In this document: positions 9,184 to 9,925 of the stretch, piece after piece
Layout: every line of letters begins with the position of its first letter
How positions within the stretch are numbered: the first letter of the stretch is position 1
The notes under the pieces: generated by a model
What the model saw: only the letters and a program-made list of their open reading frames with translations
Databases searched by the model: none
Told to the model about the DNA's origin: nothing
IMG/VR virus record: IMGVR_UViG_3300010396_000082
Location: 1-31,549 of that record
Reading direction: 5' to 3' (one strand)
DNA length: 31,549 nucleotides
Source: a virus
Translations under genes and position numbers: made by a program

Positions 9184-9410
9184 TTTTGATCATCCCGTAG
9201 AGTTTCTGCGCGGCGGTTCCATGCTTTGGCCACGACAAGATTTTTTGCATGATACGACCTAGCGCGCTTCCAGGCTTTGCGTTCATCCATTGTGAGGTAT
9301 GGTCCGCGCGCTCCACACTTCGGGCATTCCATCGGATCGGCGTGATACTCGCTGGCGATAAACTTGCCGCGATATATGTTGCCGCAGAATGGGCATGGCT
9401 TAAGTTTCAT
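9180..9410 (-). CDS. Zinc-ribbon protein, Lar-like
   Basis: The 76-residue protein has two CxxC knuckles (KPCPFCGN near 5-11 and ECPKCGARGP near 29-37) and the closing KAWNRRAE segment typical of the Lar (restriction alleviation) style zinc ribbons in phages. Lar of the Rac prophage modulates a type I restriction enzyme, but most relatives are only similar in the zinc ribbon, so a protective role against host restriction is a guess. It is coupled by ATGA to the next gene. Confidence 0.65.
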   Translation of the reverse strand: MKLKPCPFCGNIYRGKFIASEYHADPMECPKCGARGPYLTMDERKAWKRARSYHAKNLVVAKAWNRRAETLRDDQK

Positions 9411-9444
9411 CTTCGCTAATCCTCGCCATCGGGTAGAGATTGTG

Positions 9445-9618
9445 TCATTGCAGGTCCTTCCATACCGATGCAGTGAAAATCGCTGTGAAAAGCGTGCTGG
9501 CGATCAGCATTGCGAAAAGTGTATTGATGTTGCCGATTGCGTAATTGTAAGCGAGCACCGATAGCTGAAAGCCGATACAGCCCAGCAGCATCCATTTCAC
9601 GCTCTTAGGTGTCATCAT
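9445..9618 (-). CDS. Small two-helix membrane protein
   Basis: The product (about 57 residues) starts at tandem ATG codons (9618 or 9615) preceded by a GAGG-type SD; the longer frame would run through the tRNA-like gene and is rejected. Two hydrophobic stretches are visible: KWMLLGCIGFQLSVLAYNYA and LFAMLIASTLFTAIFTASVW, separated by a short turn (IGNINT). It looks like a tiny inner-membrane hairpin protein, similar in size to phage holins or superinfection-exclusion proteins, but it is not in the lysis region, so no function is assigned. Confidence 0.6.
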   Translation of the reverse strand: MMTPKSVKWMLLGCIGFQLSVLAYNYAIGNINTLFAMLIASTLFTAIFTASVWKDLQ

Positions 9619-9647
9619 CGCCCATCCTCGCCATAGAATTCTAAAGC

Positions 9648-9764
9648 ACCGCATGGAGGGACTTGAACCCCCGGCCTCCAGCACAAGCGGGATATCACTC
9701 GCTTGTCGGCAACTTGTACATCATCGCCTATGTACTGACACTCTACCAACTGAGCTACATGCGG
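9648..9764 (-). tRNA. tRNA-like gene with expanded, non-canonical anticodon region
   Basis: The outer parts are those of a tRNA: acceptor CCGCATG/CATGCGG (7 bp), TA, D arm GCTC-AGTTGGTA-GAGT, T arm GGGGG-TTCAAGT-CCCTC. Between D and T arms lie 66 nt instead of about 22. A weak anticodon stem TCAGT/GCTGG (two G-T pairs) and an AGGCC variable loop can be drawn, leaving 51 nt where 7 are expected. Inside are the hairpins GTACAT/ATGTAC and ACAAGCG/CGCTTGT. No ordinary anticodon loop with T33 could be found and no 3' CCA is encoded. It may be a tRNA with a small insertion or intron, a decayed tRNA, or a tRNA mimic. Confidence 0.5.
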
Positions 9765-9772
9765 ATTCTGAT

Positions 9773-9925
9773 TCATTTGTCGTCTTCCCCATTACACGAC
9801 GACACATGTTTCCATGTTTCGCCGTCAACGCATTTCTTCATTGTTGCCCAAGCGACTCCGTACTCTTTGCACATTTCATAATCTGCTTCCCAGCCAAAGA
9901 CCGGAACCCATCTTTCATTTTTCAT
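9773..9925 (-). CDS. Small hypothetical protein, 50 residues
   Basis: The product contains ERWVPVFGWEADYEM, a CKEYGVAWATMKKCVDGETW segment with two Cys, and an acidic end (NGEDDK). The start ATG overlaps the preceding gene by 11 nt, and the stop lies 8 nt before the tRNA-like gene. The regular composition and tight spacing support a real gene. Not recognised. Confidence 0.55.
   Translation of the reverse strand: MKNERWVPVFGWEADYEMCKEYGVAWATMKKCVDGETWKHVSSCNGEDDK

Follow-up and report, generated by a model that had tools for sequence, protein, structure and literature searches.

What kind of RNA would be made from a phage gene that retains the frame of a tRNA and carries 51 nt where its 7-nt anticodon loop belongs? 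Bacterial and phage tRNA introns are usually regarded as large self-splicing group I elements, and the locus considered here raises the question of whether a far more compact insert represents an intron, part of a non-decoding RNA, or the result of a recent disruption. The window, that is, the whole stretch of DNA that was analyzed, is an entire IMG/VR virus record, 31,549 bases long. A protein scan identified it as a temperate tailed phage encoding a terminase, a portal protein, a tyrosine integrase, an SSB, an ERF recombinase, and a lysozyme. A first-pass annotation made from the sequence had described a tRNA-like gene at 9648-9764 with a perfect 7-bp acceptor stem and intact D and T arms; the coordinates are right, the strand is minus, and all of these parts are present. 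The Rfam tRNA model matched the gene well above its curated threshold of 29 bits (E 1.6e-7), and the same model assigned 57.8 bits to a second tRNA of this phage, a tRNA-Asn at 1713-1640. ARAGORN drew a CCA tail on the tRNA-Asn, whereas none is encoded in the tRNA-like gene, which was not called by this program under default settings. When introns were allowed, ARAGORN proposed a tRNA-Leu(tag) with a 42-nt intron, which was rejected owing to an A where U33 is expected. The components of the gene, in 5' to 3' order except for the hairpins nested within the replaced loop, are as follows:

9648..9764, minus strand: whole tRNA-like gene, 117 nt (Rfam RF00005, 48.1 bits)
9758..9764, minus strand: 5' strand of the acceptor stem, CCGCATG, 7/7 Watson-Crick pairs with 9655-9649
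9740..9755, minus strand: D arm, GCTC AGTTGGTA GAGT, 4 bp, with G18, G19, A14, G15, and A21 kept
9734..9738, minus strand: 5' strand of the anticodon stem, TCAGT, positions 27-31, 5/5 pairs with GCTGG
9683..9733, minus strand: segment of 51 nt replacing the 7-nt anticodon loop, as read from the sequence
9716..9735, minus strand: hairpin 1, GTACAT-AGGCGATG-ATGTAC, 6 bp with an 8-nt loop, two bases in common with the anticodon stem
9683..9706, minus strand: hairpin 2, ACAAGCG-AGTGATATCC-CGCTTGT, 7 bp with a 10-nt loop, stacking directly on the anticodon stem
9678..9682, minus strand: 3' strand of the anticodon stem, GCTGG, positions 39-43, pairing with TCAGT
9656..9672, minus strand: T arm, GGGGG TTCAAGT CCCTC, 5 bp, with T54, T55, C56, R57, and A58 kept
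9649..9655, minus strand: 3' strand of the acceptor stem, CATGCGG, pairing with CCGCATG
9648, minus strand: discriminator T, no CCA encoded

Read from 5' to 3', the gene is CCGCATG TA GCTC AGTTGGTA GAGT G TCAGT (51 nt) GCTGG AGGCC GGGGG TTCAAGT CCCTC CATGCGG T, in which the D arm has the letters GCTCAGTTGGTAGAGT and the T arm the letters GGGGGTTCAAGTCCCTC. All 21 base pairs of the frame are formed, with a single G-U pair in each of the D and T stems. Outside the anticodon loop, the 15 conserved positions that were checked (T8, A14, G15, G18, G19, A21, C48, G53, T54, T55, C56, A57, A58, T60, and C61) are all present. With its stems and tertiary positions in place, 9764-9648 is a genuine tRNA body.

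The departure from a normal tRNA is confined to one place. The D and T stems are separated by 67 nt, close to the 66 nt first reported, against 23 in a class I tRNA. The first-pass annotation had seen no anticodon arm in this interval; it was right that the loop has been replaced, but it overlooked the 5-bp stem formed by TCAGT and GCTGG, which includes two G-U pairs, lies at the standard distance from the D and T arms, and closed completely in just 34 of 5000 shuffled versions of this region. The variable region, AGGCC, also has its standard length of 5 nt. Because the anticodon stem and the variable region are both kept, the anomaly is restricted to the loop, with 51 nt instead of 7. Searching the gene for a 7-nt anticodon loop with U33 and a purine at position 37 gave no strict solution. 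Similarly, no single excision yielded a canonical loop with U33 and no mismatches, since position 33 is C or G for every cut; the possibility that a normal tRNA might be obtained by correcting an error, raised at the outset, thus did not materialize in its simplest form. Lacking an anticodon loop, the 117-nt RNA cannot decode as written, and the lack of an excision that leaves a canonical U33 loop makes a decoding product unlikely.

The replacing segment is itself structured. Its two perfect hairpins of 6 and 7 bp, which had been noticed from the letters alone, occurred together as disjoint elements in 1 of 4000 dinucleotide shuffles (0.025%). The minimum free energy was less striking than the hairpins, with z-scores of -1.9 for the whole RNA and -1.5 for the insert region. 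A cloverleaf with the full hairpin 1 was computed at -35.3 kcal/mol versus -31.9 kcal/mol with the full anticodon stem, a slight preference for the former, and both folds may exist. An origin of the insert by local duplication was rejected, as no match longer than 13 nt was found within the record. A 9-codon open reading frame inside the insert, MMYKLPTSE, is probably due to chance.

The genomic setting is compact, with reading frames on the same strand at both sides of the RNA gene:

9773..9925, minus strand: upstream ORF of 50 aa, its end 8 nt ahead of the RNA gene
9445..9618, minus strand: downstream ORF, start at 9618 or 9615 behind GAGG, roughly 30 nt past the end of the RNA gene

Given these distances, the RNA gene nearly fills the intergenic gap. 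It showed neither a clear promoter nor a clear terminator of its own, the downstream ORF had no PHROG match, and the record proteins scanned, which are a subset of the ORFs, included no RNA ligase or splicing gene. The leader before the ORF starting at 9618 (9613-9622) resembles a leader near 9399-9429 over 31 nt at 84% identity. It has GGCGATGATG in common with hairpin 1, probably as a repeated gene-start sequence.

The first-pass annotation had suggested looking for the same RNA in related phages, and no homologue was found in the collections searched. Exact patterns (the hairpin, the D and T arms together, the variable and T region, and an acceptor without insert) retrieved only one contig, L005, from 2.9 million viral contigs, and the D-to-T pattern retrieved nothing from bacterial and archaeal genomes representing 84,980 species; as exact-match searches, these could miss diverged relatives. 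BLAST against INPHARED phages and PLSDB plasmids returned only ordinary D- and T-arm words. Contig L005, whose integrase is of the Bacteroidetes type as judged from its ORFs, has CAAGTTRC between two hairpins, as in the tRNA-like gene, and its anticodon stem is also closed. It was rejected as a second family member, as a match of 7-8 letters in a different element is probably due to chance. Relatives of the phage itself were identified by terminase, namely L003, at 62% identity, and three more distant ones. The tRNA-like gene was absent from the three viral ones among these four, which were scanned for tRNAs. The nearest of them, L003, carries a normal tRNA, a tRNA-Gln by its loop, and the records of two more distant viral relatives contain no tRNAs.

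To place the gene among phage tRNAs with compact inserts, IMG/VR was scanned for viral-contig tRNAs whose D arm is separated by 53-83 nt from the GGTTC of the T arm. The scan yielded at least 119 contigs; after removal of tandem-tRNA artefacts and with an acceptor stem of at least 6 bp, at least 73 distinct genes were kept, the 9764-9648 gene included. Among the matches listed, 37 of 73 genes regain a strict anticodon arm (5 bp, U33, and a purine at 37) after one excision, compared with a mean of 1.34 and a maximum of 7 in 100 rounds of shuffling. In 26 genes among the matches listed, the cut falls after position 28 or 29, where 0.12 would be expected. It follows that compact, intron-like inserts do exist in phage tRNAs and are common there, and the "small-insertion tRNA" that the first-pass annotation had listed as one option turns out to be a populated category. 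Splicing of these inserts is inferred. Most of the interpretable inserts look intron-like and not scaffold-like. Some other phage tRNA-like genes have intact arms and an anticodon arm that cannot be recovered.

A recurrent type of insert, defined here as class A, consists of a hairpin of 6-8 bp followed by 2-3 nt and then CAGCAA. In most cases, it follows tRNA position 28 or 29; its exact removal restores a canonical tRNA, although some class A genes do not give a strictly canonical excision. In an alignment of 22 members, compensatory changes were found at 7/7 predicted pairs. A covariance model built on this class, R1, detected further copies, mostly within tRNA genes and often several per phage. 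Taken together, class A looks like an undescribed family of small tRNA introns. Examples include L107:935-976 (Serratia phage BF), L006, L007, L017, L034, L090, L117, and others. Among isolated jumbo phages, class A occurs in Serratia BF, the Erwinia SNUABM series, Cronobacter GAP32, and Pectobacterium CBB, in which the genes are annotated plainly as tRNA-Lys, tRNA-Phe, or tRNA-OTHER. The homologues in GAP32 (L131) and CBB (L132) occupy the same syntenic place and are labeled tRNA-Lys and tRNA-Phe, respectively, a mismatch that reflects either a different anticodon or an annotation misled by the insert.

Further types were observed in the survey. In class B (L004, L012, L016, L092, L086, L113, L114, L109, L024, and L037), the insert is a longer hairpin; its 3' strand runs into GTTAYY (GTTACTT or GTTATC, for instance), and this motif lies directly before the anticodon arm. 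Class C (L015, L053, L060, L070, L072, L079, L089, L091, L096, and L105) has intact acceptor, D, and T arms and no anticodon arm; its center is a stem around GGTgAAGGACC followed by GTAAA, and it is probably a family of non-decoding tRNA-like RNAs. In L018, L019, and L062 (with the near-identical L118 and L120), the acceptor, D, and T arms are intact and the anticodon arm appears to be replaced by one long hairpin. The 9764-9648 gene belongs to the broad insert set by its architecture and lies outside the intron-like members by their defining tests; R1, run on it with filters off, reached at best 0.6 bits on the wrong strand.

The best reading of these results is an orphan RNA of tRNA fold, non-decoding as written, that is either a scaffold non-coding RNA or the carrier of an unclassified intron. 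Chance does not account for it, and long decay is at odds with the intact frame; the earlier interpretation is partly supported, in that the frame, the anticodon stem, and the tertiary-contact positions argue against long random decay. The tRNA mimic or decoy that it named is conjectural. That the gene is either a natural tRNA-scaffold RNA, with a two-hairpin head closed by the anticodon stem, or a further type of tiny intron in phage tRNAs, distinct from group I and bulge-helix-bulge introns and leaving a mature tRNA without U33, has in our judgment not quite an even chance. As a tentative preference, we regard it as a temperate-phage tRNA gene whose anticodon loop has become a 51-nt two-hairpin segment and whose product is a tRNA-scaffold non-coding RNA. 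This preference draws on the complete set of conserved positions (15/15) and frame pairs (21/21), on an insert structured beyond chance (1/4000) and closed by an intact anticodon stem (34/5000), on the fit of the gene between two same-strand ORFs, and on the other phage tRNA-like genes whose arms are intact and from which no anticodon arm can be recovered. It is weakened by the absence of a homologue from every collection searched and by the intron-like character of most interpretable inserts. Under the scaffold reading, the gene would be transcribed with its operon, and its ends would be cut by host tRNA enzymes (RNase P and RNase Z or exonucleases) with addition of CCA, giving a stable, tRNA-shaped RNA of 117 nt. 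The tRNA body might ensure processing and stability and be bound by proteins that handle tRNAs, and the specific function might reside in the two-hairpin head, which could, for example, occupy a tRNA-cutting defense nuclease or a tRNA-binding protein of the host.

An unclassified small intron of about 44 nt in the anticodon loop, whose removal would leave a class I tRNA with the TCAGT/GCTGG stem and a loop without U33, is a serious but rather unlikely alternative. Hairpin 1 would then be a structure of the precursor only, competing with the anticodon stem. The closed stem and standard variable region are what such an intron predicts, excisable compact inserts are common in phages (37/73 among the matches listed versus 1.3 expected), and some class A genes likewise lack a strictly canonical excision. 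Nevertheless, position 33 is C or G whatever the cut, the insert matches neither class A nor an Rfam group I model and has no bulge-helix-bulge, and the proteins scanned include no ligase or splicing gene. We consider it unlikely that the locus is a recently disrupted phage tRNA gene, with an insertion into or replacement of its loop, or an assembly error, in either case without function; its status as a singleton without homologue in a metagenomic record and its only mildly unusual folding energy (z -1.9) would fit such an event, whereas the intactness of all frame positions, the retained anticodon stem, the two perfect hairpins, and the lack of a copy of the insert elsewhere in the record do not. 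The minimum free energy fold draws yet another shape, that of a class II tRNA in which hairpin 2 is lengthened at its base. An atypical decoding tRNA of this shape, its anticodon arm being hairpin 1 (6 bp, 8-nt loop) and its long variable arm hairpin 2, is very improbable, given that the loop AGGCGATG has no U33 and no credible anticodon, that the linkers (4 nt before hairpin 1 and 9-10 nt around hairpin 2) are unlike those of known class II tRNAs, and that the standard-position stem TCAGT/GCTGG would have to be ignored.

These findings indicate that compact inserts are frequent in phage tRNAs, that exact excision of the insert leaves a canonical tRNA in about half of the surveyed genes among the matches listed, and that the inserts comprise at least one type that is a recurrent, covarying RNA element. 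Against this background, the 9764-9648 gene is an informative exception, in which the frame and the anticodon stem are intact, the insert is structured, and the anticodon is not recoverable. If the scaffold reading is true, phages would also use the tRNA frame to carry non-decoding RNAs.

Several known systems bear comparison with this gene. The tRNA cluster of phage T4 yields the stable RNAs C and D, which are non-decoding, approximately 120-140 nt long, and made alongside tRNAs; they are not known to keep a full tRNA frame, and the comparison with the present gene extends to the Rfam scan. A tmRNA was rejected, as neither ARAGORN nor Rfam gave a tmRNA match, and so was an archaeal-type tRNA intron, as no bulge-helix-bulge of 3-4-3 geometry occurs at the insert borders. 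Group I introns are ribozymes of about 200 nt and more. They occupy the anticodon loops of bacterial and phage tRNAs (review PMC3984707), the same site as the present insert, which has 51 nt and no Rfam group I match; only tRNA matches reached the gathering threshold, and a group I intron was rejected. A search of the open-access literature, with subscription papers and preprints outside its scope, found no mechanism for compact phage tRNA inserts. Phage tRNAs with "enigmatic introns" are already known and poorly understood, the tRNAs of Lak megaphages carrying short inserts that fell into none of the Rfam intron classes (Devoto et al. 2019, PMC6784885). The Lak tRNAs and the tRNA-like gene are both enlarged by a short insert, yet the inserts of two expanded Lak-A1 tRNAs (101 and 104 nt) differ from that of the 9764-9648 gene, which cannot be trimmed to a canonical tRNA and has no known sequence relative. 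Class A was also considered as the published Lak introns and rejected, as R1 matches no Lak-A1 tRNA. Class A is marked by a covarying hairpin followed by CAGCAA, both absent from the tRNA-like gene; what the two have in common is a structured insert (approximately 40-57 nt in class A) that sits in the anticodon arm, the rest of the phage tRNA being intact.
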